A program made the position numbers and the translations under genes. Source: Streptomyces hygroscopicus subsp. hygroscopicus (GTDB lineage: Bacteria > Actinomycetota > Actinomycetes > Streptomycetales > Streptomycetaceae). From it: a stretch of 64,000 nucleotides of DNA. Below are positions 883 to 34,408 of this stretch, piece by piece. The stretch covers positions 992,001 to 1,056,000 of the forward strand of contig NZ_BSSM01000001.1 of assembly GCF_030269125.1 (NCBI RefSeq). The letters are read 5' to 3'. Each line of letters starts with the position of its first letter. Position 1 is the stretch's first letter. The notes below the pieces were generated by a model. The model made no database searches and was not told the origin of the DNA. It was given only the letters and a program-made list of their open reading frames with translations.

Positions 883-914
883 ATCGACCCGCGCGCACAG
901 GCGCGACCACAGCT

Positions 915-957
915 CGCGAGGGGACCCCGGCGAATCCAGCGCCGGGGTCCCCTCGCG
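915..957. terminator. Bidirectional hairpin terminator
   Basis: A perfect 18-bp inverted repeat (915-932 with 940-957) and a 7-base loop sits between the stop codons of two convergent genes (882 and 974). It has no long T tract, as is common in Streptomyces, and should serve both directions. Confidence 0.8.
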
Positions 958-973
958 TCGTGCCGGCGGGGCG

Positions 974-1789: not shown

Positions 1790-1797
1790 GGGTCTCC

Positions 1798-2925: not shown

Positions 2926-3028
2926 GTCTCGATCCTGCCACCCGGCACCGACACCCCGGCAACCGCGGGGTGAAGAGCCGAGACCAGTATGGTTTATGAC
3001 GAAATTTTCCACCGATAACCGGATGCGC

Positions 3029-3043
3029 TTAGGTTCGCCTAAC
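3029..3043 (+). promoter_or_regulatory. Partial iron-box-like site (DmdR/IdeR type)
   Basis: TTAGGTTCGCCTAAC matches 13 of the first 15 positions of the 19-bp actinobacterial iron box, but the last four positions do not match. It is itself a dyad (TTAGG-N4-CCTAA). It lies in the divergent region between hemH and the MFS gene, 55 bases before the MFS start. Iron control of either gene would make sense but is unproven. Confidence 0.4.
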
Positions 3044-3097
3044 TCGTAAGCTGTATCCGCCGCATTCGCGCCTTACCGGAACCGCCTCGGAGACCAC

Positions 3098-4348
3098 GTG
3101 CCCAGCCCCTACAGAGCCCTCTTCGACGTGCCCGGGACCAAGGCCTTCTCGGCCGCGGGGCTCCTCGGCCGGATGCCGCTGTCCATGATGGGCATCGGCG
3201 TGGTCACGATGATCTCCCAGCTCACCGGCCGCTACGGGCTCGCGGGCGCGCTGTCGGCCACCATCGCGCTGTCCGCCGCCGTGCTCGGACCGCAGGTCTC
3301 CCGCCTGGTGGACCGGCACGGGCAGAGCCGGGTGCTGCGCCCGGCGACCCTCGTGGCCCTCGTCGCCGCCGCCGGACTGCTGCTGGCCGCGCACTTCGGG
3401 TGGCCGGACTGGGTGCTGTTCGCCTGTGCCGCCGGGATCGGCGCGGTGCCGAGCCTGGGCGCGATGATCCGGGCCCGCTGGGCCGCCCTGTACCGGGGCA
3501 CGCCCCGGCTGCACACCGCCTACTCCTTCGAGTCGGTCGTGGACGAGATCTGCTTCGTCTTCGGGCCGATCCTCTCCATCGGGCTGTGCACGGTCTGGTT
3601 CCCGGAGGCGGGCCCCCTGCTCGCCGCGGTCTTCCTGGCGGCCGGCGTGTACTGGCTGACCACCCTGCGCGCCACCGAGCCCGCGCCGCACCCGCGCGAG
3701 CGGCGCGGCGGGGGCACCGCGCTGCGCTCGCCGGGACTCCAGGTGCTGGTGGCGACCTTCGTGGCGACCGGCGCGATCTTCGGCTCGGTGGACGTGGTCA
3801 CGGTCGCCTTCGCCGACGAGCGCGGCCACAAGGGCGCCGCGAGCGTCGTGCTCGCCCTGTACGCGGCCGGTTCCTGCGCGGCCGGGGCGGTCTTCGGCCT
3901 GCTGCGCCTCGCCGGGGCTCCGGAACGCCGCTGGCTGCTGGGCGTGGCCGCCATGGCCGTGAGTATGATCCCCCTCCTACTGGTCGGAAACCTGCCGCTT
4001 CTGGCCGCTGCGCTGTTCGTTGCGGGGCTGTCCATCGCACCGACGATGATCACGACGATGTCCCTCATCGAAGAGCACGTACCTCGCACGCAGCTCACCG
4101 AGGGCATGACCTGGGTGAGCACCGGCCTCGCGGTCGGCGTGGCGCTCGGCTCCTCGCTGGGCGGCTCGGTGATCGACGCCGCCGGTGCGCGCGCCGGGTA
4201 CGGGGTCCCGGTGCTGTCCGGGGCCGTCGCGGTCGTGGTCGGTTTCCTCGGGTACCGCCGGCTGCGCAGGCCGGCCGCGGGTCGGGGAGGAACCGTTGAG
4301 CAGCACGGCGAACGGCAGGACGAGCGGCGCGAGCGGCACATGGCGTAA
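3098..4348 (+). CDS. MFS transporter, 12-TM type
   Basis: A 416-residue polytopic membrane protein of the major facilitator superfamily. It begins at GTG 3098 with GGAG five bases upstream. Hydrophobic segments recur throughout (for example FSAAGLLGRMPLSMMGIGVV near residue 14 and LLAAALFVAGLSIAPTMITT near 300), and the loop LVDRHGQSRVL near 69 fits the conserved cytoplasmic MFS loop. The substrate is unknown. The iron-box-like dyad upstream and divergence from hemH could suggest a metal or siderophore link. Its last 53 bases overlap the next gene in another frame, implying coupled translation. The tail is unusually polar (EQHGERQDERRERH). Confidence 0.88.
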   Translation: MPSPYRALFDVPGTKAFSAAGLLGRMPLSMMGIGVVTMISQLTGRYGLAGALSATIALSAAVLGPQVSRLVDRHGQSRVLRPATLVALVAAAGLLLAAHFGWPDWVLFACAAGIGAVPSLGAMIRARWAALYRGTPRLHTAYSFESVVDEICFVFGPILSIGLCTVWFPEAGPLLAAVFLAAGVYWLTTLRATEPAPHPRERRGGGTALRSPGLQVLVATFVATGAIFGSVDVVTVAFADERGHKGAASVVLALYAAGSCAAGAVFGLLRLAGAPERRWLLGVAAMAVSMIPLLLVGNLPLLAAALFVAGLSIAPTMITTMSLIEEHVPRTQLTEGMTWVSTGLAVGVALGSSLGGSVIDAAGARAGYGVPVLSGAVAVVVGFLGYRRLRRPAAGRGGTVEQHGERQDERRERHMA

Positions 4349-5627
4349 CTGGGGCGGGAACGTAGCGGCGCGGCCCGCCCGGCAGGTCGCGCCGGTCTCG
4401 GTGGAGGAGCTGGCCGCGGCGGTGCGCCGGGCGCGGGAGGACGGGCTGGCGGTGAAGGCCGTCGGCACGGGGCACTCCTTCACGTCGATCGCGGCGACCG
4501 ACGGTGTGTTGATACGCCCTCAACTGTTGACCGGTATACGCAAGATCGACCGGGCGGCCATGACCGTCACCGTCGAGGCCGGCACCCCGCTCAAGAGGCT
4601 CAATGCGGCGCTGGCGCGCGAGGGTCTGTCGCTCACCAACATGGGCGACATCATGGAGCAGACGGTCTCCGGGGCCACCAGCACCGGCACCCATGGCACG
4701 GGACGCGACTCCGCTTCCATCGCCGCCCAGATCAAGGGCCTCGAACTCGTCACGGCGGACGGCTCGGTGCTCACCTGCTCCGCGACGGAGAACCCCGAGG
4801 TCTTCGCGGCCGCCCGCACAGGACTCGGCGCGCTCGGCGTCGTCACCGCCCTCACCTTCGCCGTGGAGCCGTTGTTCCTGCTGACGGCGCGCGAGGAGCC
4901 GATGCCGCTGGACCGGGTCCTCGCCGAGTTCGATCAGCTCTGGGCGGAGAACGAGCACTTCGAGTTCTACTGGTTCCCGCACACCGGGAACACCAACACC
5001 AAGCGCAACAACCGCAGCGCGGGCCCCGAGCAGCCGGTCGGTCGGCTGGCCGGCTGGTTCGAGGACGAGTTCCTGTCCAACGGCGTCTTCCAGGTGACCC
5101 AGTGGGTCGGCCGGGCGGCGCCCGCGAGCATCCCGGCCATCTCGAAGATCTCCAGCAGGGCGCTGTCCGCGCGGACGTACACCGACATCCCCTACAAGGT
5201 CTTCACCTCGCCGCGCCGGGTGCGCTTCGTGGAGATGGAGTACGCCGTTCCGCGCGCCGCCCTGGCGGACACGCTGCGCGAACTGAAGGCCATGGTCGAG
5301 CGCTCGGGCCTGCGCATCAGCTTCCCGGTCGAGGTGCGCACCGCGCCGGCCGACGACATCACCTTGTCCACCGCCTCCGGCCGCGACAGCGCCTACATCG
5401 CCGTCCACATGTACCGGGGCACTCCCTACCAGTCGTACTTCACCGCCGCCGAGCGCATCTTCACCGCGCACGAGGGCCGGCCGCACTGGGGCAAGGTGCA
5501 CACCCGGGACGCGGAGTACTTCGCGCGGGTGTACCCGCGGTTCACCGAGTTCACGGCGTTGCGGGACCGTCTTGACCCGGAACGGCTGTTCCGGAACGAC
5601 TACTTGCGGCGGGTGCTGGGGCCGTAG
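4296..5627 (+). CDS. FAD-dependent oxidoreductase of the lactone/alditol oxidase (ALO) family
   Basis: A VAO/PCMH-fold flavoprotein of about 443 residues related to D-arabinono-1,4-lactone oxidase, gulonolactone oxidase and alditol oxidase. It opens with RNWGGN, followed by the FAD-binding region VGTGHSFT, where the His is the usual covalent flavin site, then SGATSTGTHGTG. The C-terminal ALO signature region includes GRPHWGKVH and the closing FRNDYLRRVLG. I chose the TTG at 4296 because GGGGAGG lies five bases before it; upstream in-frame starts lack such a site and run deep into the MFS gene. It overlaps the MFS gene by 53 nt and forms an operon with it. The substrate is unknown. Confidence 0.87.
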   Translation: MSSTANGRTSGASGTWRNWGGNVAARPARQVAPVSVEELAAAVRRAREDGLAVKAVGTGHSFTSIAATDGVLIRPQLLTGIRKIDRAAMTVTVEAGTPLKRLNAALAREGLSLTNMGDIMEQTVSGATSTGTHGTGRDSASIAAQIKGLELVTADGSVLTCSATENPEVFAAARTGLGALGVVTALTFAVEPLFLLTAREEPMPLDRVLAEFDQLWAENEHFEFYWFPHTGNTNTKRNNRSAGPEQPVGRLAGWFEDEFLSNGVFQVTQWVGRAAPASIPAISKISSRALSARTYTDIPYKVFTSPRRVRFVEMEYAVPRAALADTLRELKAMVERSGLRISFPVEVRTAPADDITLSTASGRDSAYIAVHMYRGTPYQSYFTAAERIFTAHEGRPHWGKVHTRDAEYFARVYPRFTEFTALRDRLDPERLFRNDYLRRVLGP

Positions 5628-6297
5628 GCGTCCCGGCGGGGCCGCTGGGCGTGGGGGCCGGGGTGGTCCGGCCCCCGTCGGGCGAGGCGCTCGGGGAGGG
5701 CGTCGCCGGGCCGGCCGTACCGCCGTCGGACCCGGATCCCGTACCGGTCCCCGGGTTCGAGCCCGGTTCCGCGGTGGCGGTGCCGTCCGAGGAGGCGCCG
5801 TCACCGGAGGAGGTACGCGGGGGGAGATGACCGGGGTCATCCGTTCGGTGGACGGCGGAGGACCGGCCGCGGACCGCGTCGCCGACCGTCGTACCGCTTC
5901 CGCCGCTGAAGCTGCTGCCGGACACCAGTTCGTATGCCGTGATGCCGCCCATGGTCACCCCGAACACGAGAGCGGCCGCGACCACCGGGCGCCGCCAGCT
6001 CTTGACCCGCGCGCGGTAGACGGTGCCCTCGGAGAACTCGCCCGGGGCGGGCGGCACCGGCGCGGCGGCGGACGTCTTGGCCACCCTCAACTGCTCGCCG
6101 GTGCGCCGGAAGAAGTGCTGGAAGAGGGTGCCGCCGCAGGTGGCGATCACGCTGACGACACCCGCGCCGAGGATCGTGCCGTACACGCCGAAGGAGGAGG
6201 CCAGCTTCGCCGCGACGACCGCCGCCAGGGCGCTGCCCGCCACCTGGGGGACGTTCAGGTCGAGCCGCTTCCGCTCCGCATCGGGTGTTTCGCGCAT
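5551..6297 (-). CDS. Membrane protein with disordered Gly/Ser/Thr/Pro tail, unknown function
   Basis: About 248 residues from ATG 6297. Residues 15-60 form one or two hydrophobic segments (VAGSALAAVVAAKLASSFGV, GTILGAGVVSVIATCGGTLF) and another lies near 100-118 (PVVAAALVFGVTMGGITAYE). The rest is a low-complexity Gly/Ser/Thr/Pro tail (for example SGDGASSDGTATAEPGSNPG), probably outside the membrane. An alternative ATG 30 bases upstream is possible; neither has a strong ribosome site. The 3' end overlaps the oxidase 3' end by 77 bp in convergent orientation. I do not recognise a function. Confidence 0.7.
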   Translation of the reverse strand: MRETPDAERKRLDLNVPQVAGSALAAVVAAKLASSFGVYGTILGAGVVSVIATCGGTLFQHFFRRTGEQLRVAKTSAAAPVPPAPGEFSEGTVYRARVKSWRRPVVAAALVFGVTMGGITAYELVSGSSFSGGSGTTVGDAVRGRSSAVHRTDDPGHLPPRTSSGDGASSDGTATAEPGSNPGTGTGSGSDGGTAGPATPSPSASPDGGRTTPAPTPSGPAGTPTAPAPAASSRSGTAVPGQDGPATP

Positions 6298-6777
6298 ACC
6301 CGGAACTTGCCTGCCTTTCCCGTACTCGATCGGCATCGGGGTACCGACTGCACGAGATAGGGACGTACGGACGGAACCATTAGTTCCGTTTCCGGGGGTT
6401 GCGTGAAGTTCGCCACGTCCGTGATCCGCGAAACCGGTTGCACGGGGCTCACGGGTGCCACTCGCCGGAAGTTGGGCGGCGCGCCAATCCACGCACGTGG
6501 CCCGAATGGAGTACTGTTGCGAGCCCTGGGTCCGGTCTCCCACCAGGGTGTCCGCGGCCACCAAGGACCGCCGGGAGGGGGCTAGTTGCACAGGGTGACG
6601 GTCTTGGTCACTTAGCGTGGCGAACTGGTTACCGTGCCATAACGGCGACTCAAGGCCCGCGCCCGACACGCCGGGCAACTCGGCAAGGTTGTGGCAGGCT
6701 GCACCCGGGCAGGCCACACTCGACTAGCGGAAGCAGCGACGCACGTGACGTCGGCAGGCACCACCCGGGAGGTCCCC
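6298..6777. other. Divergent intergenic region upstream of sepH
   Basis: These 480 bases separate a membrane-protein gene and sepH, which point away from each other. Base composition is less GC-rich than in the genes and no frame looks coding. It should carry both promoters. I see no confident operator. Confidence 0.5.
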
Positions 6778-7806
6778 ATGCCCGAACTGCGTGTCGTGGC
6801 CGTCTCGAATGACGGCACACGGCTGGTGCTGAAGGCTGCCGACTCCACGGAATACACGCTTCCGATCGACGAACGGCTGCGCGGCGACCGGCCGCGCCTC
6901 GGCCAGATCGAGATCGAGGTCGAGAGCCATCTGCGCCCCCGCGACATCCAGGCGCGGATACGAGCCGGTGCCACCGCCGAGGAGGTCGCGCAGCTCGCGG
7001 GCATCCCCGTCGACCGGGTGCGGCGCTTCGAGGGTCCGGTGCTGGCCGAGCGCGCCTTCATGGCCGAGCGGGCCCGCAAGACCCCGGTCCGGCGTCCCGG
7101 CGAGAACTCCGGGCCGCCGCTCGGCGAGGCCGTGCAGGAACGGCTGTTGCTGCGCGGCGCCGAGAAGGACACGGTGCAGTGGGACTCCTGGCGCCGCGAC
7201 GACGGCACCTGGGAGGTGCTGCTCGTCTACCGGGTCGCGGGCGAACCGCACTCGGCGAGCTGGACGTACGACCCTCCCCGGCGCCTGGTCCAGGCCGTGG
7301 ACGACGAGGCCCGCTCGCTGATCGGCGAGTCCGACGACCTCGCCGTGCCGGAGCCGAGCTTCCCGTTCGTCCCGCGCATCGCCCGGCTGCCGCGCGAGCG
7401 TTCGATGGACCGCGCCCTGGAGCGGACCGACCGGGAACGGCCGAGCCTGCCCGCGCAGTCGTCGGAGCCCGCCGAGGAGAGCACCGGTGAACGGGACTCG
7501 CTGACCAGCCTGTTGGAGGCGGTGCCGTCCTTCCGCGGCGACATGGTGGTGCCGGAGCGCAACCCGGAGACCCCGGACGAGCCCGACGGCGAAGCCGCCC
7601 TGGAGGAGCCGCCGGCGCCCGCCGCCTCGGCCGGCTCGGCCTACGCGGACGTCCTCATGCCCCGCTCGGTCGGCAGCCACCGCGACCGGCTGACCGGCGC
7701 CACCGACCGCCAGGCCGAGGCCGACGGGGTGCGCCCCGGCCGCCGCGCGGCCGTCCCGAGCTGGGACGAGATCGTGTTCGGCACCCGGCGCAAGAAGCAG
7801 GACTGA
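6778..7806 (+). CDS. sepH: Cell division protein SepH (DUF3071)
   Basis: A 342-residue orthologue of Streptomyces SepH, which binds FtsZ, stimulates its assembly and is needed for regular sporulation septa. The N-terminal DUF3071 domain starts MPELRVVAVSNDGTRLVLKA and includes a helix-turn-helix-like stretch around residues 55-85 (IRAGATAEEVAQLAGIPVDR). The middle is acidic and disordered; a short conserved block sits at the C-terminus (PSWDEIVFGTRRKKQD). Length agrees with known SepH (about 340-345). The ATG at 6778 has GGGAGGT five bases upstream. The gene is monocistronic, ending at a strong hairpin shared with the convergent sulfurtransferase gene. Confidence 0.93.
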   Translation: MPELRVVAVSNDGTRLVLKAADSTEYTLPIDERLRGDRPRLGQIEIEVESHLRPRDIQARIRAGATAEEVAQLAGIPVDRVRRFEGPVLAERAFMAERARKTPVRRPGENSGPPLGEAVQERLLLRGAEKDTVQWDSWRRDDGTWEVLLVYRVAGEPHSASWTYDPPRRLVQAVDDEARSLIGESDDLAVPEPSFPFVPRIARLPRERSMDRALERTDRERPSLPAQSSEPAEESTGERDSLTSLLEAVPSFRGDMVVPERNPETPDEPDGEAALEEPPAPAASAGSAYADVLMPRSVGSHRDRLTGATDRQAEADGVRPGRRAAVPSWDEIVFGTRRKKQD

Positions 7807-7823
7807 CCGGCCGCACGACGCGA

Positions 7824-7857
7824 AGAGGGGCGGGGCATCAAGGTGCCCCGCCCCTCT
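7824..7857. terminator. Bidirectional hairpin terminator after sepH
   Basis: A perfect 14-bp inverted repeat (7824-7837 with 7844-7857) with a 6-base loop lies 17 bases after the sepH stop and 9 bases before the end of the convergent sulfurtransferase gene. Confidence 0.85.
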
Positions 7858-7866
7858 CGGTCGCCG

Positions 7867-8718
7867 TTACTGCGGGTCCGCGCCCACCGCCACGGGCCGG
7901 GAGGGGTCCGCGGACCACTCCGACCACGAACCGACGTACAGCGCCGCCGGGATGCCCGCCACGGCGAGGGCCAGCACCTCATGGGCGCCGGAGACGCCCG
8001 AGCCGCAGTAGACGCCCACCGGCACGTCCGCGGAGACGCCGAGGGCCTTGAAGCGGTCCTTGAGCTCGGCCGCGGGCAGGAAGCGGCCGTCGGGGCCCAC
8101 GTTCTCCGTCGTCGGCGCCGAGACCGCGCCGGGGATGTGCCCGCCGACCCGGTCCACGGGCTCCACCTCGCCCCGGTACCGCTCCCCCGCGCGGGCGTCC
8201 AGCAGCACGCCTGTGCGGGCCAGTGCGGCGGCCGTGTCCGCGTCCAGCAGGCCCGCCGCGTCCGGCGCCGGCACGAAGTCGCCCTCGGCCGGGGCGGCCA
8301 CCCCGGTCGACAACTCCCCCGTCCAGGACGGCAACCCGCCGTCGAGGACCCGCACGTCCGGGTGACCCGTCCAGCTCAGCATCCACCAGGCGCGGGCCGC
8401 GGCCCAGCCCTGCCCGCCGTCGTACACGACCACCGGACGGCTCGCCGACACGCCCGCGCGGCGCATCGCGGCGCCGAACTCCGCGAGGTCCGGCAGCGGG
8501 TGGCGGCCGTGCGCGCCCGGGGCCGCGGCCAACTCCCGGTCCAGGTCGACGTAGACCGCGCCGGGGATGTGCCCGGCCGCGTGCTCTGCCCGGCCGTCGA
8601 AGGGCGGGGCACCCGCCGCCTTCGCCAGGCTCAACTGCCAGCGCACGTCCAGCAGGACGGGCGGCGCCTCGCCGGCGAGCGCCGCCGCGAGTTCGGGTGC
8701 GGTGATGATGACTGTCAT
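7867..8718 (-). CDS. Sulfurtransferase with two rhodanese domains
   Basis: A 283-residue tandem-rhodanese protein. The N-terminal domain (about 5-130) has a degenerate loop with no active Cys; the C-terminal domain carries Cys238 in VYCGSGVSGAH. The CGSGV form resembles 3-mercaptopyruvate sulfurtransferases more than thiosulfate rhodaneses (CRKGVT), so either sulfur donor is possible. WQLSL, HIPGAV and WSEWS motifs are present in the expected places. Start ATG 8718 fits the family N-terminus. It is convergent with sepH. Confidence 0.87.
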   Translation of the reverse strand: MTVIITAPELAAALAGEAPPVLLDVRWQLSLAKAAGAPPFDGRAEHAAGHIPGAVYVDLDRELAAAPGAHGRHPLPDLAEFGAAMRRAGVSASRPVVVYDGGQGWAAARAWWMLSWTGHPDVRVLDGGLPSWTGELSTGVAAPAEGDFVPAPDAAGLLDADTAAALARTGVLLDARAGERYRGEVEPVDRVGGHIPGAVSAPTTENVGPDGRFLPAAELKDRFKALGVSADVPVGVYCGSGVSGAHEVLALAVAGIPAALYVGSWSEWSADPSRPVAVGADPQ

Positions 8719-9054
8719 GGCGCCATGCATACGCCAGGGGTGGCCGCGGCGTCCAGGTCCGGCTACTCTGCTCGGCCGGGCAGTCTCGATCACGACCTGT
8801 AGGGGATCGGGCACATGCCGTGCATCCGGCGGACATCCTGCCGGGCATCGTCAGGAAGCGGCGAAAAACGTCAGCCCAGGCATTCTTCCGGAAGACTCCG
8901 CCGAACCGGCGGCGCGGCGAATCGACAGGGCCGCGCGACCGTGGAGGATGCGGACACACCGGTACGGGCGTACGCGCCGGCGGCGTGCACACACCTGCCG
9001 GAGGAGCGGAAGCGACACGGCCGCCGCACGAGGCGGCCGGGGAGAGAGTGATCG
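8719..9054. other. Divergent intergenic region, no gene seen
   Basis: These 336 bases lie between the divergent sulfurtransferase and VOC genes. Frames here give Arg/Ser/Gly-rich translations typical of shadows. Both promoters must be here; I could not assign a sigma-factor class. Confidence 0.45.
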
Positions 9055-9846
9055 ATGACCGAGGCACGGGAGTCGGCCGGTCCGCAGGCGCTGCGCGCGC
9101 CCGGCACACCCTGCTGGGTGAGCCTGATGGCGCACCGGCTCACCGCCACCGAGGAGTTCTACGGGGAGCTGTTCGGCTGGGAGTTCCGGCCGGGCCCGCA
9201 GCAGCTCGGCCCGTACGTGCGGGCGCTGCTCGACGGGCGCGAGGTGGCCGGCATGGGCCGGCTGCCACCGGAGAACCGGCTGCCGATCGCCTGGACGCCC
9301 TACCTCGCCTCGGACGACGTGGACCGCACGGCCGAGGCGGTGCGGCTGTGCGGCGGCACGGTGGCGGTCGGCCCGCTGGACGCGGCCGAGGCCGGACGGC
9401 TGGCCATCGCCGCGGACCCCTCGGGGGCGGTGTTCGGCATCTGGCAGGCGCCCGGGCACCTCGCCCCGGCGGTCACCGGAGTGCCGGGCACACCCGCGTG
9501 GAACGAGCTGCTCACGTTCGAGACGCAGAGCGTCGCCAAGTTCTACGTGAGCGTGTTCGGGTACGAGACGGAGCCGGTGGTCTCGGCCGGCCTCGACTAC
9601 GTGACCCTGCGCGTCGACGGGCGCCCGGTGGCCGGGCTGCACGGTGTGGGCCATGGGCTGCCCCGCGACCGTGGGCCGTACTGGCAGACCTGTTTCGAGG
9701 TGGCGGACACCGGCGAGACGCTGCGTCAGGTGACCGGGCTGGGCGGCCGGATCGTCCGCCCGGCCCACGACAGTCCGCACGGGCGGGTGGCGACGGTGGC
9801 GGATCCGGAGGGGGCGGTGTTCTCGGTGGTCCAGGATCCGCGCTGA
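9055..9846 (+). CDS. VOC (glyoxalase/bleomycin-resistance fold) protein, two modules
   Basis: A 263-residue protein with two vicinal-oxygen-chelate modules, about residues 18-130 and 145-262. Each has the pattern of a short start (GTPCWVSLMA, GTPAWNELLT), then AT-EFYGELFGWEF or AKFYVSVFGYE, and ends with the ATVADPEGAVFSV type strand. Tandem VOC proteins of this kind are common in actinobacteria (annotated as hydroxylase or CFP30B-like antigen), and the substrate is usually unknown. ATG 9055 is preceded by GGGGAGAGAG. It is convergent with the thymidine kinase gene with only 33 bases between. Confidence 0.85.
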   Translation: MTEARESAGPQALRAPGTPCWVSLMAHRLTATEEFYGELFGWEFRPGPQQLGPYVRALLDGREVAGMGRLPPENRLPIAWTPYLASDDVDRTAEAVRLCGGTVAVGPLDAAEAGRLAIAADPSGAVFGIWQAPGHLAPAVTGVPGTPAWNELLTFETQSVAKFYVSVFGYETEPVVSAGLDYVTLRVDGRPVAGLHGVGHGLPRDRGPYWQTCFEVADTGETLRQVTGLGGRIVRPAHDSPHGRVATVADPEGAVFSVVQDPR

Positions 9847-25386: not shown

Positions 25387-26550
25387 TCAGGCGGCGGGTA
25401 CCGCGACCGGTGGCTCGGGGCCCACATAACGCGCCACCGGGCGGATGATCTTCGGGTCGGCCGCCTGTTCCAGGATGTTGGCGCTCCAGCCCACGACCCG
25501 GGCCGCGGCGAAGGTGGGGGTGAACATCTCCCGGGGCAGGCCACACAGTTCCATCACCACACCGGCGTAGAACTCGACGTTGACGTGGAGTTCGCGGCCC
25601 GGCTTCAGCTCGGCGAGGATGGCCTCGACCCGGCGTTCGACCTCCACCGCGAGGTCCACCCGGGGGCCGCCGAAGCCGAGGGCGATCTCCCGCAGCATCC
25701 GCGAACGGGGGTCCTCCGTGCGGTAGACGGCGTGTCCGAAGCCCATGATCCGCTCGCCGGCCATCACCCGTTCCCGGATCCAGGGGTCTATGCGGTCCGG
25801 GGTGCCGATCGCGTCCAGGGTGTCCAGGGCCCGGCTGGGCGCACCCCCGTGCAGCGGGCCGGACAGCGCGCCCACGGCGCCGGTCAGACAGGCCGCCGCG
25901 TCGGCGCCGGTGGAGGCGATGACCCGCCCCGTGAAGGTTGACGCATTGAATCCGTGGTCAATAGTAGAGATCAAGTATTGCTCGACCGCACGAGCCCTGC
26001 GCGGATCGGGTTCCGAACCGGTCAGCATGTACAGGTAGTTGGCCGCGTACGGCAGATCGTCACGCGGCTCCACCGGGTCGAGCCCCCGCCCCAGTCGGTA
26101 CAGGGCGGTGAGCAGGGTGGGGACGGCGGCGCAGGCGGCCAGGGCGTCGGCGCGGCGCCGGTCGGCGTCGAGGTCGTACAGCGGCCTGAATCCGCGTGCC
26201 GCGCCGAGCAGGGACAGCGCGGTGCGCAGGCCGGCCAGCGGGCCGGAGGCGCGGCCGGCGGCGGCGATGGCGGGCAGGGCCGCCCGGACCTCCTCGGGCA
26301 GCCGCCGCAGCGCCGCGGTCTCGGCGATGAAGGCGGCACCGCGCTCGGCGTCGGGGAGGGCGCCGTGCGCGAGCAGGTGCCAGACGTCCTCGAAGCGGCG
26401 GGTGCGCGCGAGATCGACCGCCGAGTACTGGCGGTAGTGGTAGAAGCCCTCCCAGCCCCGGACGTCGCCGATCTCCGTCTCGGTGACGACGACGCCCGCG
26501 AGACCGCGAGGGGCCTCGACGAGGGGTGCTGCGGTCCTGTCGATGGTCAT
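25387..26550 (-). CDS. Citrate synthase-family protein (paralogue 1)
   Basis: A 387-residue citrate synthase-fold protein; the family condenses acetyl-CoA (or propionyl-CoA) with oxaloacetate. Two active-site His are present in SGPLHGGAP and MGFGHAVYR. The catalytic Asp of the NVDFYSG motif is Glu here (NVEFYAG), which could weaken or alter catalysis. The C-terminus has WSANILEQ and RPVARYVGP. ATG 26550 sits just inside the AT-rich divergent region. A stretch of rare, AT-rich codons occurs at 25930-25980. It is divergent from a second citrate synthase with a DNA-binding domain; the main Streptomyces citrate synthase gene is elsewhere, so this is probably an accessory enzyme. Confidence 0.85.
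   Translation of the reverse strand: MTIDRTAAPLVEAPRGLAGVVVTETEIGDVRGWEGFYHYRQYSAVDLARTRRFEDVWHLLAHGALPDAERGAAFIAETAALRRLPEEVRAALPAIAAAGRASGPLAGLRTALSLLGAARGFRPLYDLDADRRRADALAACAAVPTLLTALYRLGRGLDPVEPRDDLPYAANYLYMLTGSEPDPRRARAVEQYLISTIDHGFNASTFTGRVIASTGADAAACLTGAVGALSGPLHGGAPSRALDTLDAIGTPDRIDPWIRERVMAGERIMGFGHAVYRTEDPRSRMLREIALGFGGPRVDLAVEVERRVEAILAELKPGRELHVNVEFYAGVVMELCGLPREMFTPTFAAARVVGWSANILEQAADPKIIRPVARYVGPEPPVAVPAA
25938..25974. promoter_or_regulatory. AT-rich run with TTGA/TCAA half-sites inside the citrate synthase gene
   Basis: TTGA at 25938 and 25946 and TCAA at 25958 and 25971 occur within 37 bases. The words GTCAAT and ATTGAATC also occur in the intergenic cluster at 26601-26618. 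The codons here are rare for this genome (CAA, TTG, TCT, ACT, ATT, GGA, AAT, TCA within about 18 codons), which suggests selection on the DNA or RNA sequence. A role as an internal operator is inference. Confidence 0.35.
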
Positions 26551-26581
26551 GATGCTCCTTCCCGAGCTTGATCCGACTGTC

Positions 26582-26648
26582 CACTCTTGATGTTTTATCT
26601 GTCAATGTTGATTGAATCAATCTATGAAGAGTTGGCCATCAAGAAGTG
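26582..26648. promoter_or_regulatory. Palindromic half-site cluster between the divergent citrate synthase genes
   Basis: The region contains the perfect odd palindrome TTGATTGAATCAA (26608-26620), the dyad TCAATGTTGA (26602-26611) and an outer inverted repeat CTTGATG (26586-26592) with CATCAAG (26637-26643). In all, six TTGA/TCAA half-sites fall in 56 bases. It is much richer in AT than its surroundings. It is a natural operator for the HTH domain of the adjacent fusion protein, by inference. Confidence 0.55.
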
Positions 26649-26662
26649 CAGAGGCCGCTACG

Positions 26663-27934
26663 GTGACCCCCATGCGCGATCACGAACCCGCTCCCCACCG
26701 CCCCGGTCGAAGACTGACCACCAAGGAGACCGCCGAACTGCTCGGCGTGAAGCCCGAGACGGTGTACGCGTACGTCAGCCGCGGCCTGCTGAGCAGCAAG
26801 CGCGAACCCGGCGGCCGCGCCAGCACCTTCGAGGCGCGCGAGGTGGAGGACCTGGCCCGGCGCAACCGCCGTGAAAGCGCCGGGATCCCGGGCTCGGGCG
26901 GCGATCTCTCGGTGCGCACCCGGATCACGCTGATCGAGGCGGACCGGTACTACTACCGGGGCGTCGACGCCACCGAGCTGGCCGCCCGCCACTCCTACGA
27001 GGAGGTCGCGGAGTGGCTGTGGACCGGCCGGCTCGTGCCCGGCACGGTCTTCACCGCGCCCGAGGCGACCGTGCGCGCCGCCCGCTGGGCCGTGAAGGCG
27101 CTGCCCGAGCACACCTCCCCCATCGACCGGCTGCGGGTCGCGACGATCGCCGCGGCGGCCGAGGACCCGCTGCGCTTCGACCTGTCCGGTGAGGCCGTGC
27201 TGAACACGGCGCGCGTCCTCATCCCCACGCTCGTCGCGGCCCTGCCGCCGGTCGTGCGCGACCCCGGGGAGGACGTGCCGCTGGCCCACCGTCTGTGGTC
27301 GCGGCTGACCGGCCGGGACGCGGACGAGGACGCCCTGCGGGTCCTGGACGCCGCGCTGGTCCTGCTCGCCGACCACGACCTGGCCGCCTCCACGCTCGCG
27401 GTCCGGGTCGCCGCCTCCGCGCGGGCCCACGCCTACGCGACGGTCTCGGCGGGTCTCGGTGTCCTGGAGGGCCCGTTGCACGGCGCCAGCAGCGGGCTGG
27501 CCCACCGGATGCTGCTGGACGTCCTCGACCTGGGCAACGCGGCCCCGGTGATCGCCGACGAGCTGCGCGCGGGCCGCCGCATCCCCGGGCTCGGCCACCG
27601 CCTGTACACCGGCGAGGACCCCCGCGCACAGGTCCTCTTCGGCCTGCTGGAGCGGCTCCCGCGCGCGGAACCGGCCCTGCTCGCGGCCCGCGACATCGTC
27701 GCCACGACCGCCCGGCACACCCCGCTGCACGCCAACGTCGACCTGGCGCTCGCGGTGTTCACCTCCTCCTTCGGCATGCCGGCCACCGCCGGCGAGACGA
27801 TCTTCGCCGTCGCCCGCACGGCGGGTTGGATCGCGCACGCCCTGGAGGAGTACGGCGAGCGCCCCCTGCGCATGCGCCCCGTCGGCCACTACGTAGGTCC
27901 GCGCCCGCCACAGCCCCTCCCTGAGGCGGACTGA
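26663..27934 (+). CDS. Helix-turn-helix / citrate synthase fusion (paralogue 2)
   Basis: About 423 residues. Residues 15-70 form a MerR/excisionase-like helix-turn-helix (LTTKETAELLGVKPETVYAY, then REVEDLARR), and the rest (about 75-420) is a citrate synthase domain with GPLHGASSG, GLGHRLYTG and the catalytic Asp context ANVDLALAV, ending HYVGP. GTG 26663 is chosen because AGAGG lies eight bases upstream; ATG 26672 in frame is also possible. An enzyme domain tied to a DNA-binding domain suggests a regulator sensing acetyl-CoA or a 2-oxoacid, or an autoregulated enzyme. It is divergent from paralogue 1 across a palindromic cluster. Confidence 0.85.
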   Translation: MTPMRDHEPAPHRPGRRLTTKETAELLGVKPETVYAYVSRGLLSSKREPGGRASTFEAREVEDLARRNRRESAGIPGSGGDLSVRTRITLIEADRYYYRGVDATELAARHSYEEVAEWLWTGRLVPGTVFTAPEATVRAARWAVKALPEHTSPIDRLRVATIAAAAEDPLRFDLSGEAVLNTARVLIPTLVAALPPVVRDPGEDVPLAHRLWSRLTGRDADEDALRVLDAALVLLADHDLAASTLAVRVAASARAHAYATVSAGLGVLEGPLHGASSGLAHRMLLDVLDLGNAAPVIADELRAGRRIPGLGHRLYTGEDPRAQVLFGLLERLPRAEPALLAARDIVATTARHTPLHANVDLALAVFTSSFGMPATAGETIFAVARTAGWIAHALEEYGERPLRMRPVGHYVGPRPPQPLPEAD

Positions 27935-29049: not shown

Positions 29050-30720
29050 ATGAGCCCGACTCCCTCCGCACGCCGTCTGCGCCTCGGTATGCCACGGCGG
29101 GCGTTCTCGCAGGTGCTGCTCATGCAGGTGACGATCGCCGCGGGCGTCGCGGTGCTCGTGACCGGCCTGTTCCTGGCGCCGCTGAGCAAACAGCTGGACC
29201 GCGAGGCGATGCGCCGCGCGCTGGCCATCGCCGAGACCACGGCCCAGGACCCGCAGATCGCCAACGGCCTGCTGACCACGCCGCCGACCGAGGACGGCCC
29301 GGTGCAGCGCGAGGCCGAGCGGATCCGGCGGGCCACGCACGCCGAGTACATCGTGGTCCTCGACCGGCACTGGGTGCGCTGGTCGCACCCGACCACCTCG
29401 CAGATCGGCCGCATAGTCTCCACGAGCCCCTCCGACGCCCTCGCGGGCAAGGAGGTCATGGAGATCGACCGGGGCACCCTCGGGCGCTCCGCGCGCGGCA
29501 AGGTGCCGCTGTACGACGCCCACCACCGCCTGATCGGGGCGGTCTCGGTCGGCATCGCCTACGACAGCGTGCGCGCCCGGCTGATCAGCGTCATCCCGGG
29601 GCTGCTCGCCTACGCGGGGGGTGCCCTCGCGGTGGGCGCGCTGGCCGCCTGGCTGATCGCCCGCAGGGTGCAGCGGCAGACCCGGGACCTGGCCTTCTCC
29701 GATATCTCGGCGCTGCTCGCGGAGCGCGAGGCGATGCTGCACGGGATCCGTGAGGGAGTGGTCGCCCTGGACCGCAGCGGTCGGATCCGGCTGCTCAACG
29801 ACGAGGCGCGCCGGCTCCTGGGCATCGGCGACGAGGCCGTGGGCCGCACCCCGGACGAGGCGCTCGGTGAGGGCCGAACGACCGATGTGCTCGCCGGGCG
29901 GGTGACCGGCACCGATCTGCTGACGGTGCGCGGCCGGCGCGTCCTGGTCGCCAACCGCATGCCCACCGACGACGGCGGTGCGGTCGCCACCCTGCGCGAC
30001 CGCACCGAGCTGGAGCAGTTGGGACGCGAACTCGACTCCACGCGGGGCCTGATCGACGCCCTGCGCGCCCAGGACCACGAGCACGCCAACCGGATGCACA
30101 CCCTGCTCGGGCTGCTGGAACTGGAGATGTACGACGACGCGGTGGAGTTCGTCGGTGAGGTGGTCGGTGACCACCGGGTCACGTCCGAGCAGGTGACCGA
30201 GAAGGTGCAGGACCCGCTGCTGGCCGCCCTGCTGGTGGGCAAGGCGACGGTGGCGGCGGAGCGCGGCGTCGCCCTGTGGGTGTCGGAACGCAGCCGGCTC
30301 CCGGACCGGCTGGTCGATCCGCGGGGGCTGGTCACGGTGGTCGGCAACCTGGTGGACAACGCCCTGGACGCCGTCGCGGGCACCCCGCACGCGCGCGTGG
30401 AGGTCGAGTTGCGCGTCGAGGGCCGTACGGTCGTGCTCAGGGTGCGGGACACCGGCCCAGGAGTTCCGCTGGACCAGCGGGAGTTGGTGTTCACCGAGGG
30501 GTGGTCCACCAAGCGGGCGCCCGCGCACGGCAAGCGGGGCCTCGGGCTGTCGCTGGTGCGCCGGCTCGCCGAACGCCAGGGCGGCAGGGTGACCGTGGGC
30601 ACCGCCGGCGGGGGCGGCGCGGAGTTCACGGTGGTGCTGCCGGAGGCGCTGGGCGAGCCGGGACTGGAGCCGGGGCCCGGATGGGAACCCGAGCCCGAGC
30701 CCACGGCGCGCACCAGTTGA
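29050..30720 (+). CDS. Sensor histidine kinase, CitA/DcuS type
   Basis: A 556-residue membrane kinase. TM1 is near residues 20-45 (LLMQVTIAAGVAVLVTGLFL), an extracytoplasmic PAS-like sensor spans about 46-175, TM2 is near 178-200 (GLLAYAGGALAVGALAAWLI) and a cytoplasmic PAS domain covers about 215-315. The phospho-acceptor is His343 in QDHEHANRMHTLLGL, the SpoOB-like form of citrate/dicarboxylate kinases. The ATPase domain has NLVDNALDAV, DTGPGVP and KRGLGLSLV. No regulator follows directly; a CitB-type regulator lies 3 kb further on the same strand beyond an ABC operon. The ligand is probably a small carboxylate or the ABC substrate. Confidence 0.9.
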   Translation: MSPTPSARRLRLGMPRRAFSQVLLMQVTIAAGVAVLVTGLFLAPLSKQLDREAMRRALAIAETTAQDPQIANGLLTTPPTEDGPVQREAERIRRATHAEYIVVLDRHWVRWSHPTTSQIGRIVSTSPSDALAGKEVMEIDRGTLGRSARGKVPLYDAHHRLIGAVSVGIAYDSVRARLISVIPGLLAYAGGALAVGALAAWLIARRVQRQTRDLAFSDISALLAEREAMLHGIREGVVALDRSGRIRLLNDEARRLLGIGDEAVGRTPDEALGEGRTTDVLAGRVTGTDLLTVRGRRVLVANRMPTDDGGAVATLRDRTELEQLGRELDSTRGLIDALRAQDHEHANRMHTLLGLLELEMYDDAVEFVGEVVGDHRVTSEQVTEKVQDPLLAALLVGKATVAAERGVALWVSERSRLPDRLVDPRGLVTVVGNLVDNALDAVAGTPHARVEVELRVEGRTVVLRVRDTGPGVPLDQRELVFTEGWSTKRAPAHGKRGLGLSLVRRLAERQGGRVTVGTAGGGGAEFTVVLPEALGEPGLEPGPGWEPEPEPTARTS

Positions 30721-30741
30721 TCGGTTGACTGACCGCCGTAC

Positions 30742-31797
30742 TTACTTGACCGCCTTGACGAACTCCGTGGTGTACGTCTTGCTCAGGTCGACGTTCGCGT
30801 TCTTGATGTTGGGGTTGAACGCCTTAAGCACCTTCTCCACGGTCTCGGGGCCGCCCTGCGGCATCACGCCGTCGTCGGTGAACATCGGCAGGGTGCTCTT
30901 GACGGACTGGGTGTAGAGCGCCTTGCCGCCCTGGGCGTAGTCGGCGGGCATCTTGGCGGCGATCTCGTCGGCGCTGTGGGTGGACATCCACTTGAGCGTC
31001 TTGACGAACGCGTTGACCAACTTCTGGACGGTGTCCTTGTGCCCGTTCACCCAGTCCGTCTGCATGTACAGACTTGACGACGGGTACGGCCCGCCCAGCG
31101 CCTGCTGCGAACCCTCCGGGGTGCGCATGTCGAGAAGGACCTTGCCCACCTTCTTGTCCAGGATCGTCGCGACGGTCGGATCGGTGGTCATGCCGCCGTC
31201 GATCGAGCCCTGCTGCAGCGCCGCGATGAACGTCGGTCCCGCGCCGACCGCGACCGGCGTGAACTGGCTGACGTCGACGCCGTTCTTGACCGCCAGGTAC
31301 TTGGTGAGGAAGTCGGTCGAGGACCCGAGCCCGGTCACGCCCAGCTTGCGGCCCTTGAAGTCCTTGGGCGATGTGAGGTCGCCCGCGGCCTTGGCGGAGA
31401 CGACCTCCACCTCGCCCGGCGCGCGCGAGAACTGGACGACCGACTCGACCGACTTGCCCTTCACCTGGAGGTCGAGGGTGTGGTCGTAGAAGCCGACCGC
31501 GCCCTGCACCTGGCCGGCGACGAGCGCGGTCTCGGCCTGGACCCCGGCGGGCTCGCTCATGAGCTGGACGTTCAGGCCCTCGTCCTGGAAGTAGCCGAGG
31601 CGCTGGGTGAGCATCGCGGGCATGTAGATGACCTTGTCGAGGCCGCCGACCATGATCTTGACGGTCTCGCCCTTGCCGCCGCTCCCGCCGCCGGAGCCGG
31701 CCGCGGAACCCGCCGCGTCGTTGGCGCAGGCGGTGAGGGAGGACAGGGCGAGCAGGCCGGCGGCGGCCAGGGAGGCGTGTCGGGCGGTCTTGCGCAT
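30742..31797 (-). CDS. ABC transporter substrate-binding lipoprotein (NMT1/SsuA/TauA-like)
   Basis: A 351-residue lipoprotein. The signal peptide (1-24) ends in the lipobox LTAC, followed by a Gly/Ser linker (SAAGSGGGSGG). The mature part belongs to the NMT1/SsuA group binding sulfonates, nitrate, taurine or thiamine-pyrimidine-like compounds: KIMVGGLDKVIYMPAMLTQR, RLGYFQDEGLNV and LGVTGLGSSTDFLTKYLAVK are typical. ATG 31797. It is the last gene of a three-gene minus-strand operon (ATPase, permease, binding protein) and converges on the kinase gene with 21 bases between stops. Substrate unknown. Confidence 0.9.
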   Translation of the reverse strand: MRKTARHASLAAAGLLALSSLTACANDAAGSAAGSGGGSGGKGETVKIMVGGLDKVIYMPAMLTQRLGYFQDEGLNVQLMSEPAGVQAETALVAGQVQGAVGFYDHTLDLQVKGKSVESVVQFSRAPGEVEVVSAKAAGDLTSPKDFKGRKLGVTGLGSSTDFLTKYLAVKNGVDVSQFTPVAVGAGPTFIAALQQGSIDGGMTTDPTVATILDKKVGKVLLDMRTPEGSQQALGGPYPSSSLYMQTDWVNGHKDTVQKLVNAFVKTLKWMSTHSADEIAAKMPADYAQGGKALYTQSVKSTLPMFTDDGVMPQGGPETVEKVLKAFNPNIKNANVDLSKTYTTEFVKAVK

Positions 31798-31888
31798 GGC
31801 GGTTCACGTCCTTGTGAGAGGGCGGTGCGGGAAGGCGTGGGGGGCTGGTCCTGCGAAGGGCCGGTCGGCCGCGTCCGTAACCGGTGGG

Positions 31889-32752
31889 TCAGCTGTCGGA
31901 ACCGGCGGGCTTCCAGCGGAAGATGCGTCGTTCGGCGAAGGTCAGCAGTCCCTCGGCGGCGAGGGCGACCACGGCGAGGATGACCATCGCGGCGTACACA
32001 CCGGCGGCGTTGAAGGTGTTCTGCGACTGCGCGACGAGCAGGCCGATGCCCTTGGTCGCGCCGATGTACTCGCCGACGATGGCGCCGATGAGCGCGAAGC
32101 CGAAGCTGACATGGAGGCTGGTGAAGATCCAGGAGGTGGCCGACGGGATGACCACTTGGAGGGTGACCCTGCGGTCGCTCGCGCCCAGGATGCGAGCGTT
32201 GGACACCAGGTTGCGGTCCACCTCGCGGGCGCCCTGGAAGGCGTTGAAGAACACCGGGAAGAAGACCAGCACCACGGCGGAGGCGACCTTGGAGGACGGG
32301 CCGAGGCCGAACCAGATCAGGAAGACGGGAGCCAGGACGATCCTGGGGATCGAGTTGAGCACCTTGATGTATGGACCAAGCACTTCCGCGAGCAGGCTGA
32401 TCCGTCCGAGCGCGATGCCGAGGAGGACACCGGCGACCACGCCGACGACCCAGCCGAGCAATGCCTCGTAGAGCGTGTACCAGACCTGCTCGCCCAGCGA
32501 GCCGAGCGCGGTGCCGTGCATGACCCAGGTGGAGATCTGGTCCCAGATCTTGGAGGGCATCGAGAAGTTGAACGGATCGATGACCTTCGCCCGGGACAGC
32601 GCCTCCCACAGGCCGAGGACGGCGACCAGGAGCACCACCCGCGTGGTGTTGACGAGGAGCTTGCGGCGGCGGGCCGCCTGGGCGCGGCTCCGGGCGCGGT
32701 CGGATGTCCTGGCGATGCCGGCGACCGGGGTGTCGAGAATCTCAGGCGACAC
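31889..32752 (-). CDS. ABC transporter permease (SsuC/TauC-like)
   Basis: A 287-residue inner-membrane permease with about six membrane segments, beginning VNTTRVVLLVAVLGLWEALS near residue 35. The EAA-loop region that contacts the ATPase is seen around GASDRRVTLQVVIPSATSWI. I prefer the GTG at 32752, which has AGAGGGG eight bases before it, over GTG 32761, which touches that site. The start overlaps the ATPase stop by 11 bases, implying coupled translation. It moves the substrate bound by the lipoprotein encoded next. Confidence 0.88.
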   Translation of the reverse strand: MSPEILDTPVAGIARTSDRARSRAQAARRRKLLVNTTRVVLLVAVLGLWEALSRAKVIDPFNFSMPSKIWDQISTWVMHGTALGSLGEQVWYTLYEALLGWVVGVVAGVLLGIALGRISLLAEVLGPYIKVLNSIPRIVLAPVFLIWFGLGPSSKVASAVVLVFFPVFFNAFQGAREVDRNLVSNARILGASDRRVTLQVVIPSATSWIFTSLHVSFGFALIGAIVGEYIGATKGIGLLVAQSQNTFNAAGVYAAMVILAVVALAAEGLLTFAERRIFRWKPAGSDS

Positions 32753-33557
32753 GGGCCGCACCCCTCTCGCGGGTGATGCGGACCTCTTCGCCGAGGGACT
32801 GCCAGATCTCCCGGTAGATCTCGATGAAGCGCGGCTGAAGACGTACCGCCTCGACCTTGCGCGGCCGGGGCAGGTCGATCTGGAAGACCTGCTTCACGGT
32901 CGCGGGGCCCGCGGTCATCACGACGACCTTGTCGGCCAGCGCGATGGACTCCTCCAGGTCGTGGGTGACGAAGACGACCGAGGCGCCGGTGCCCTCCCAC
33001 AGCTCCAGCAGTTCGTCCGACATCAGCGCCCGGGTCTGCACGTCCAGCGCCGAGAACGGCTCGTCCATCAGCAGGATCTCGGGGTCGTTGACGAAGGTGG
33101 CGGCGAGGGCGACGCGCTTGCGCTGCCCGCCGGAGAGCTGGTGCGGGTAGCGGTCCTCGAAGGCGGCGAGCCCGACCCGGGCGAGCCACTCACGGGCCTT
33201 CTGCCGGGCCTCGGCCTTGGGGACGCCGCGGAAACGGGGGCCCGCCATGACGTTCGACAGGACGGTGCGCCAGGGGAAGGTGGCGTCCTGCTGGAAGACG
33301 AAGCCGACTTTGTCGCCGACGCCGCCGACCGGCTCCCCGGCCACCAGCACCTCGCCCTCGGTGGGCTCCTCCAGGCCGCTGACCAGGGTCAGCGTGGTGG
33401 ACTTACCGCAGCCGGTCGGTCCCACGACGGCCACGAACTCACCACGTCCGACGGTGAGGTCCAGACCGCGCACGGCCGTGTGCAGTCCCCCGGACGGGGT
33501 TCTGAAGGTTTTGCTCGCGCCCCGCAGTTCGATGGCAGGGCCGGTGTGTGCGCTCAT
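32742..33557 (-). CDS. ABC transporter ATP-binding protein (SsuB/TauB-like)
   Basis: A 271-residue ATPase with Walker A GPTGCGKST near residue 46, Q-loop FVFQQDATFPW, signature LSGGQRKRVALA, Walker B ILLMDEPFSALD and the H-loop VTHDLEES. It is the nitrate/sulfonate/taurine group. It is the first gene of the three-gene operon; ATG 33557 borders a 158-base divergent region with inverted repeats shared with the response regulator gene. No fused regulatory domain. Confidence 0.92.
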   Translation of the reverse strand: MSAHTGPAIELRGASKTFRTPSGGLHTAVRGLDLTVGRGEFVAVVGPTGCGKSTTLTLVSGLEEPTEGEVLVAGEPVGGVGDKVGFVFQQDATFPWRTVLSNVMAGPRFRGVPKAEARQKAREWLARVGLAAFEDRYPHQLSGGQRKRVALAATFVNDPEILLMDEPFSALDVQTRALMSDELLELWEGTGASVVFVTHDLEESIALADKVVVMTAGPATVKQVFQIDLPRPRKVEAVRLQPRFIEIYREIWQSLGEEVRITRERGAARVA

Positions 33558-33596
33558 GGTCCGGGACGGTAGGTCCGCCCCCGGCCCAGCAGCAGT

Positions 33597-33652
33597 CTTG
33601 TGTGCACAAGCGGTTCTTTTGCTCGCAAGAACCTGTTGTGCTCTTTTTGCTC
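33597..33652. promoter_or_regulatory. Inverted and direct repeats in the divergent region between ABC operon and response regulator
   Basis: CTTGTGTGCACAAG (33597-33610) is a near-perfect palindrome. GTTCTTTTGCTCGCAAGAAC (33613-33632) has GTTCTT/AAGAAC arms. TTTTGCTC recurs at 33617 and 33645. This is a plausible binding region for the adjacent CitB-type regulator controlling the divergent ABC operon. Confidence 0.5.
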
Positions 33653-33715
33653 ACGCTACAACTGCGGAGCCGCAAAGGCGGGCCCGCCGCCCGCCGGCCT
33701 TGAAGGAGAGGCCTG

Positions 33716-34408
33716 ATGATTGACGTCCTGGTGGTCGACGACGACTTCCGCGTCGCCGAGATAAACGCCAAGTACGTGGGAAAGGTTCCCGGATTCCGGG
33801 TGGCCGCCCGCGCGCACAGTGCCGCCCAGGCACTGGCCGCCGTGGAACGCGGCGCCATCGACCTGGTGCTGCTCGACCACTATCTGCCGGACCGTACCGG
33901 TTTGGAACTCCTCCAGCGCATGCGGGAGCAGGGTCAGGGCACGGACGTCATCATGATCACGGCAGCCGGCGACGTCTCAACCGTCCAGCAGGCGATGCGG
34001 CTGGGCGCCCTGCACTATCTGGTGAAACCATTCACCTTCGCCGCGCTGCGTACCCGGCTGGACTCCTACGCCGCGCTGCGCCGCACGGTCGACCGGGTGG
34101 GCGGCCGGGGCGTGACCGGCCAGGAGCAGGTGGACCGCATCTTCGGGGCGCTGCGGACGGCGCCCGCCCCCTCCGCGCCCGGCCTGCCCAGCGGCCACAC
34201 CGCCCCCACGACGGACCTGATATGCGACGTCCTGTACGACGCCGACCATCCGCTGTCGGCCCACGAGGTCGCCGCCCGAACCGGCCTGAGCCGCTCCACG
34301 GCCCAGCGCTACCTCCGCCACCTCGAACAGGCCGGCCGCCTGCGACTCTCCCTGAAGTACGGCGACACGGGCCGCCCGGAGCACCGGTACGCATGGGTGG
34401 CGCCGTGA
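33716..34408 (+). CDS. CitB/DcuR-type response regulator
   Basis: A 230-residue regulator. The receiver domain (1-120) has acidic Asp8-Asp10, phospho-acceptor Asp54 in LVLLDHYLPD, the Thr of MITAAGD and Lys of LVKPF. A linker leads to a C-terminal winged-helix-like domain (about 160-225) with HEVAARTGLSRSTAQRYLRH. ATG 33716 is preceded by GGAGAGG. It is divergent from the ABC operon. Its probable partner is the CitA-like kinase on the other side of that operon, since both are of the citrate family and neither has another partner nearby. Confidence 0.9.
   Translation: MIDVLVVDDDFRVAEINAKYVGKVPGFRVAARAHSAAQALAAVERGAIDLVLLDHYLPDRTGLELLQRMREQGQGTDVIMITAAGDVSTVQQAMRLGALHYLVKPFTFAALRTRLDSYAALRRTVDRVGGRGVTGQEQVDRIFGALRTAPAPSAPGLPSGHTAPTTDLICDVLYDADHPLSAHEVAARTGLSRSTAQRYLRHLEQAGRLRLSLKYGDTGRPEHRYAWVAP

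Follow-up and report, generated by a model that had tools for sequence, protein, structure and literature searches.

The window analysed here is a stretch of 64,000 nucleotides from the Streptomyces hygroscopicus subsp. hygroscopicus contig NZ_BSSM01000001.1 (positions 992,001 to 1,056,000; assembly GCF_030269125.1), in which two genes related to citrate synthase (CS) diverge from a short intergenic region. The gene on the plus strand (26672-27934) encodes a 420 aa protein, a probable transcription regulator, in which a helix-turn-helix (HTH) domain is fused to a CS domain. Its divergent partner on the minus strand (25387-26550) encodes a CS paralogue of 387 aa, the proposed target. Between them lies the proposed operator TCAATGTTGATTGAATCAA (26602-26620), composed of three half-sites that form two overlapping inverted repeats, and identified from its conservation across fusion loci.

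Matches in Pfam to both proteins bore out the arrangement described in an earlier, sequence-only reading of this DNA, namely an HTH fused to a CS domain opposite a divergent CS paralogue. In the fusion, HTH_17 was matched at residues 15-66 (E 2.1e-08) and Citrate_synt (PF00285) at residues 80-402 (E 8.3e-65), the latter covering the whole domain with 219.6 bits against a gathering score of 27. Two MerR-type HTH models also exceeded their cut-offs (PF00376, 28.6 bits vs 28.2; PF13411, 24.5 vs 21.6). The NCBIfam model HTH_BldC was missed (24.4 bits vs 77), and the fusion fell under the cut-off of all 25 NCBIfam families among the matches listed (25 of 29). An AlphaFold2 model built with an alignment of 33 rows had a mean predicted local distance difference test (pLDDT) score of 91.6, with a confident HTH within residues 14-69, a low-confidence flexible linker at 71-77 and a CS fold. 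All 50 matches listed by Foldseek for this model were citrate or methylcitrate synthases. The HTH_17/MerR-like domain was placed at residues 14-69 (26711-26878, plus strand) and the CS domain, the proposed sensor, at residues 80-402 (26909-27877, plus strand). No MerR coiled-coil dimerisation helix was found in the structure model, where the CS domain follows the HTH, and the GntR HTH and fold-type I aminotransferase of the MocR family were not found, as Pfam gives HTH_17 and citrate synthase. The paralogue matched Citrate_synt with an E value of 2.4e-109, and its best match in the PDB was the Bacillus subtilis citrate synthase 2c6x. In an alignment, both the paralogue and 2c6x have Glu (in the paralogue within NVEF) at the position of the catalytic Asp of the fusion.

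Seven TTGA/TCAA half-sites were found in 26551-26671 (at 26568, 26587, 26602, 26608, 26612, 26617 and 26639). In 5000 dinucleotide shuffles of the intergenic DNA the mean was 1.93 and at least seven arose at a rate of 0.0004, while the full motif TCAANNTTGAN3-9TCAA arose in 0/5000. The dense cluster reported earlier was present, though with seven members rather than six, and only three of them belong to the conserved operator: half-sites 26602, 26608 and 26617 are conserved, while 26612 and 26639 are not. Joint action of six or seven half-sites was rejected, as only three are conserved beyond Streptomyces. What had been called a perfect palindrome is an inverted repeat (TTGATTGAATCAA) with arms of 6 bp, but these flank a single central base and the palindrome is not an even one. 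When up to two mismatches were allowed, the sole match to TTGATTGAATCAA in the window was at this place (0.03 expected). The block conserved between the two genes in Streptomyces, roughly CTTGATTCGACTGTCCATGCTTGACT-N-CTGTCAATATTGATTGAATCAAT, is longer than the operator, and only its TCAAYRTTGA-N5-TCAA portion is common to wider taxa.

The distribution of the operator was examined in 101 Streptomyces genomes, with the fusion called at E below 1e-100. The fusion was present in 62 genomes and absent from 39. The CS paralogue was also found in 61 of the 62, adjoining the fusion in 59 (58 divergent and one in tandem) and broken and moved in two, and in only one of the 39 fusion-negative genomes (G026). 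An exact genome-wide search for the operator pattern gave matches in 58 of the 62 fusion-positive genomes vs four of the 39 fusion-negative genomes, and a reversed control pattern gave two matches in all 101; the S. hygroscopicus genome contains a single exact site. The matches in the four fusion-negative genomes are one other sequence, TCAACGTTGAGATTATCAA (G050, L150:1501-1519; identical in G002, G020 and G084), which in G050, the one inspected, sits between MarR and EamA genes and is probably a MarR site. Directly upstream of the fusion, the full motif was found in 58/62 loci (all but G012, G030, G031 and G083) and in 17/18 further Streptomyces. In G031 the paralogue and the fusion are in tandem, each with one operator copy, and the copy at the fusion has one changed half-site. 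Four genomes with an incomplete paralogue beside the fusion (G011, G094, G302 and G355) retain the operator at the fusion, and G026, the only sampled genome with the paralogue and no fusion, had no operator match.

Outside Streptomyces, 40 fusion loci were fetched (L089-L128), leaving aside weak matches (G408) and partial fusions at contig breaks (G171), and the HTH was found in 37; L105, L122 and L126, in which the HTH was not found by pattern, were excluded before counting, as were L252 and L260 for the upstream count of the 62 and 37 loci. In these actinobacterial loci TTGAN3-9TCAA was present upstream in 37/37 and the full motif in 24/37, whereas 20 shuffles per locus yielded the shorter pattern in 0.5-1.7% and the full motif in none. 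The full motif was also found upstream in 7/9 other named genomes and in 7/9 Pseudomonadota. Duplicates of L096, L124 and L106 (L168, L175 and L247, respectively) were removed from the count of 18, 9 and 9 loci and are still in one group of the earlier upstream count. L258, L259 and L260 were excluded from the later count because the HTH was not found by pattern; by eye, L259 and L260 have the full site and L258 has TCAACATTGA. Named carriers of the fusion include Frankia, Jiangella, Actinoplanes, Kitasatospora, Actinacidiphila, Enemella and Paraburkholderia caledonica, and further carriers are Agrobacterium fabrum C58, Azospirillum, Chelatococcus, Comamonas, Ensifer, Caballeronia, Pseudoroseomonas (plasmid records) and genomes of the order of Paraburkholderia. 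Most of these further carriers, all Pseudomonadota, have TCAA-TC-TTGA followed by a longer spacer, and Comamonas retains only TCAATCTTGA. The operator centre is YR at the majority of actinobacterial sites, against TC at the majority of those in Pseudomonadota. Upstream of plain CS genes the motif was found in 0/3 control loci (only three were usable).

The divergent partner is a CS paralogue in most loci, and a citrate synthase in Agrobacterium and Chelatococcus. Elsewhere it is an HMGL-like/homocitrate-synthase-type enzyme (L110 by Pfam; L115 and L116 by sequence likeness), a coenzyme A (CoA) transferase (CoA-transferase III by Pfam in Paraburkholderia; by annotation in Azospirillum and Comamonas) or another gene (L120, L121, L128 and Pseudoroseomonas). 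The operator is retained where the partner gene is swapped. Operons in which the fusion is the second gene were also examined, because autoregulation predicts a site before the first gene. In two Solirubrobacterales metagenome-assembled genomes (L229 and L245) and one from Actinomycetota (L233) a CS gene precedes the fusion on the same strand, and in 3/3 of these apparent operons the operator stands before the first (CS) gene, its orientation relative to that gene unchanged. Judged by this comparison of loci, the operator tracks the fusion rather than any single partner gene. The earlier proposal that the fusion binds the intergenic sites is strongly supported by the same comparison, as the two co-occur across two phyla irrespective of the partner gene.

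In a tree, the CS domains of 29 fusions were split from the nine enzymes sampled with support of 100/99 (the midpoint root was for drawing only). An origin of the fusion by recent duplication of the adjacent paralogue was rejected, as the fusions group apart from these nine enzymes. The partner CS enzymes form three groups, which indicates that partners were recruited more than once.

A putative further target elsewhere in the S. hygroscopicus genome emerged from the relaxed scan described below: TTGATTGAATCAA lies directly before a CoA-transferase III gene (C2:33964-33982), the same type of gene as the partner in Azospirillum, Comamonas and Paraburkholderia. When one CoA-transferase locus per genome was examined (66 loci; G018 fragments and weaker paralogues excluded), TTGA-Y-N2-4-R-TCAA was present upstream of the orthologues in 14/38 fusion-positive vs 1/28 fusion-negative genomes, and this branch of the regulon therefore belongs to part of the genus. 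At the same place before the CoA-transferase gene, several Streptomyces (L329, L335, L337, L340, L342 and others) have a different palindrome, about TGGCACTCAGTGCCA. A wide regulon was considered. A relaxed scan of the S. hygroscopicus genome with up to two mismatches gave 40 matches vs 12 for the reversed control pattern; most of the matches are GC-rich by their letters, and of three inspected (L278, L281 and L283) only L281 keeps the TTGATTNAATCAA core.

The most likely start of the fusion gene, from its sequence context, is ATG 26672, which is preceded by a conserved TACGGT-N7-ATG (26659-26674). The TTG start at 26612 in the list of open reading frames was rejected in its favour; it would fall inside the operator. 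TACGGT (26659-26664, plus strand) is a candidate -10 box of a leaderless fusion transcript. For the paralogue, a conserved TTGACA (26600-26605, minus strand), overlapped by the operator, is a candidate -35 box and TGGACA (26578-26583, minus strand; TAGACA in some relatives) a candidate -10 box.

We favour the reading that the fusion is an autoregulating one-component transcription regulator with a citrate-synthase fold as its sensor, and consider this likely. With a matching site before its own gene and the facing gene in two distant phyla, the HTH-CS fusion is very probably a metabolite-sensing gene switch. We infer DNA binding, dimer geometry, ligand and sign of regulation from sequence. The HTH domains at the N-terminus of the fusion would bind TCAAYRTTGA-N5-TCAA. 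The protein would probably be a CS-type dimer, which would bring two HTH heads onto the inverted repeats, or a dimer of dimers. The targets of the fusion would be its own promoter, the divergent CS promoter and, in part of the genus, the distant CoA-transferase III gene. Citrate synthases have an open-closed movement, and oxaloacetate or a similar 2-oxo acid, alone or together with acyl-CoA, would close the CS domain and so change HTH spacing and DNA binding. Because the operator covers the candidate -35 box of the paralogue, we lean slightly towards repression of the paralogue by the fusion, relieved by the metabolite. More broadly, there is a good chance that the HTH-CS proteins are one ancient regulator family in Actinomycetota and Pseudomonadota, with one operator type and a CS fold as metabolite sensor, that recruited three CS lineages, an HMGL/homocitrate-synthase-type enzyme and a CoA-transferase, and in which catalysis was wholly lost in some lineages.

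Several observations weigh against the favoured reading. The case that the sequence-only reading named as refuting, half-sites missing in relatives that keep the fusion gene, does arise, as two genomes keep the fusion with no operator upstream of it: G012, where the paralogue is gone, and G206, where no paralogue adjoins. Both speak against autoregulation being essential, and G012 has the operator at its CoA-transferase gene though it is absent at the fusion. In G030 and G083 the operator upstream of the fusion is degenerate, as is the third half-site in the L229 operon. The full motif is missing from 13 class-sample loci, eleven of which belong to the Jiangella family and have TTGA-N-TCAA with an altered left part. 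Five fusion-positive genomes (G013, G037, G058, G089 and G093) have one extra, uninspected match elsewhere. The genomes are related, and the operator counts are therefore not independent; the CoA-transferase contrast (Fisher p 0.002, unchanged with equal upstream lengths) likewise ignores kinship and is overstated, and 24/38 fusion-positive genomes have no site at that gene. Upstream of a second HTH-CS fusion in the S. hygroscopicus genome (L069) there is no TCAANNTTGA element or operator. Strictly speaking, another factor with the same spread could still explain the operator.

The fusion could instead be a MerR-type activator rather than a repressor, which we regard as possible. The MerR and MerR_1 matches in Pfam would fit, as would some alphaproteobacterial partner promoters in which, by eye only, TTGATT-N18-20-TATATG lies across the operator. 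However, the candidate -35 box that the window operator overlaps is 16 nt from the -10 box, not the long MerR spacer, the distance from the operator to the -10 box of the fusion varies widely between relatives, and a CS domain follows the HTH in place of the coiled-coil MerR dimer helix.

Rather unlikely, in our view, is a trigger enzyme, the kind of circuit put forward in the sequence-only reading. The fusion would then be an active (methyl)citrate synthase with a second, regulatory role, sensing flux by substrate occupancy. The catalytic residues said to be kept in the window fusion are indeed present: H270 (27479-27481), H309 (27596-27598) and D357 (27740-27742; all codons on the plus strand), located by alignment, which we take to be equivalents of pig His274, His320 and Asp375. 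These and R318 are also kept in all 82 Streptomyces-type sequences. Position 238, Asn in the paralogue, is however Ala in the window protein and in 117/118 aligned fusions in all, with Ser in one; the Paraburkholderia fusion keeps Asn. Among the 118 (L122 left out; two genes in twice, the window gene with L007 and L039 with L082), H270 was found in 117, H309 in 113 and D357 in 117. Five fusions (L097, L101, L102, L103 and L128) have lost H309, and one (L120) has lost both H270 and D357; the HTH and the full operator motif are retained in them. At the presumed oxaloacetate-binding positions H235, R318 and R382 were found in all 118 and R402 in 116. A ligand site kept while catalysis is lost is what a sensor would show, and the pattern suggests that the CS fold serves as a sensor, whether or not it also works as an enzyme. 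The trigger enzyme is thus no more likely than a dedicated sensor, and with the ligand-binding residues kept, oxaloacetate, acetyl-CoA or another 2-oxoacid is a plausible ligand.

On the 3′ side of the fusion are a Suc_Fer-like gene and a histidine kinase gene with sCache_3_2, then ABC-transporter-like genes on the opposite strand and then a response regulator. The kinase, which also has a SPOB_a domain, and the response regulator farther along lie within 29050-34408, near the putative CS regulator. An sCache_3_2 and SPOB_a kinase plus a response regulator is presumably the make-up of citrate/C4-dicarboxylate sensing two-component systems. According to PMC9739823, SCO5831 of Streptomyces coelicolor adjoins the sucrase/ferredoxin-like SCO5830 and the two-component genes SCO5829/SCO5828. 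Because these neighbours match, the window pair is taken, by gene order only, as orthologues of SCO5831 (fusion) and SCO5832 (paralogue). As far as the available text goes, both are named citrate synthases or citrate synthase-like, with expression changes (PMC12323332, PMC9739823, PMC8981147, PMC7324645). No HTH, DNA-binding or regulatory role of SCO5831 itself was found in the open-access literature, a scope that leaves out most subscription papers and bioRxiv.

MtrA is reported to bind next to the operator, between SCO5831 and SCO5832 ('citA3/citA4'), at a printed site 92 and 16 bases from their translation starts (PMC12323332). Its counterpart in the window is at 26568-26583, a position that fits a fusion start at ATG 26672, and the operator region may be shared with MtrA. 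It is improbable that the intergenic element belongs to some other regulator (MtrA, GlnR, the two-component system nearby or one not yet known) and that the HTH of the fusion does another thing or nothing: MtrA binding in an electrophoretic mobility shift assay with a mostly negative effect on both genes (PMC12323332), a suggestion that the two-component system maybe represses SCO5831 (PMC9739823) and the length of the Streptomyces block all favour such a regulator, the first two at the expense of our preferred reading, but the MtrA site maps outside the operator, the operator stands before Pseudomonadota fusions too and follows the fusion through changes of partner, and 35 of the 39 fusion-negative Streptomyces have no match while the other four share one unrelated sequence.

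The second fusion in the S. hygroscopicus genome (L069; G000:C22:20000-35000), at 8225-9517 on the minus strand, is part of a gene run on that strand (460-9517) that includes a further citrate synthase, MmgE/PrpD, dienelactone hydrolase and PhyH, perhaps a biosynthetic cluster.

Carbon enters the citric acid cycle through citrate synthase, and to our knowledge a transcription factor that uses the fold of this enzyme as its sensor has not been described. If our reading of the fusion as a regulator is true, it would be a plausible added regulatory layer in S. coelicolor, which has four citrate synthase genes (PMC12323332). Many genes named 'citrate synthase family protein' would then be regulators, with their operator in hand. 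The acetyl-CoA/oxaloacetate node would have a transcriptional read-out of its own, direct, testable in laboratory Streptomyces and of use as a biosensor.

In the MocR/GabR regulators an enzyme fold acts as a ligand sensor, with specific operators (PMC5320631). The fusion resembles them in its architecture, an HTH at the N-terminus joined to an entire enzyme fold. It differs in that theirs is a GntR-type HTH with an aminotransferase fold, whereas the fusion combines an HTH_17/MerR-like head with a CS fold, and other ligands are expected. The CitR-citA pair of B. subtilis is similar in placing a dedicated regulator beside a minor citrate synthase, and B. subtilis 2c6x is the best PDB match of the window paralogue; CitR, however, is a LysR-type regulator and not a citrate-synthase fusion. 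The HTH head of the fusion is similar to those of the BldC/MerR family, as seen from the MerR matches in Pfam and the 24.4 bits against the BldC model. This is far under the BldC cut-off, however, and the fusion has a large enzyme-fold partner; BldC also binds direct repeats, whereas the proposed operator of the fusion consists of inverted repeats. SCO5831/SCO5832 appears to be the same gene pair, by gene order and with MtrA reported to bind between its members (PMC12323332). In kind, the fusion would be a one-component regulator with an enzyme fold, working in the manner of MocR; as far as we have seen, what is new is the use of citrate synthase as the sensor.
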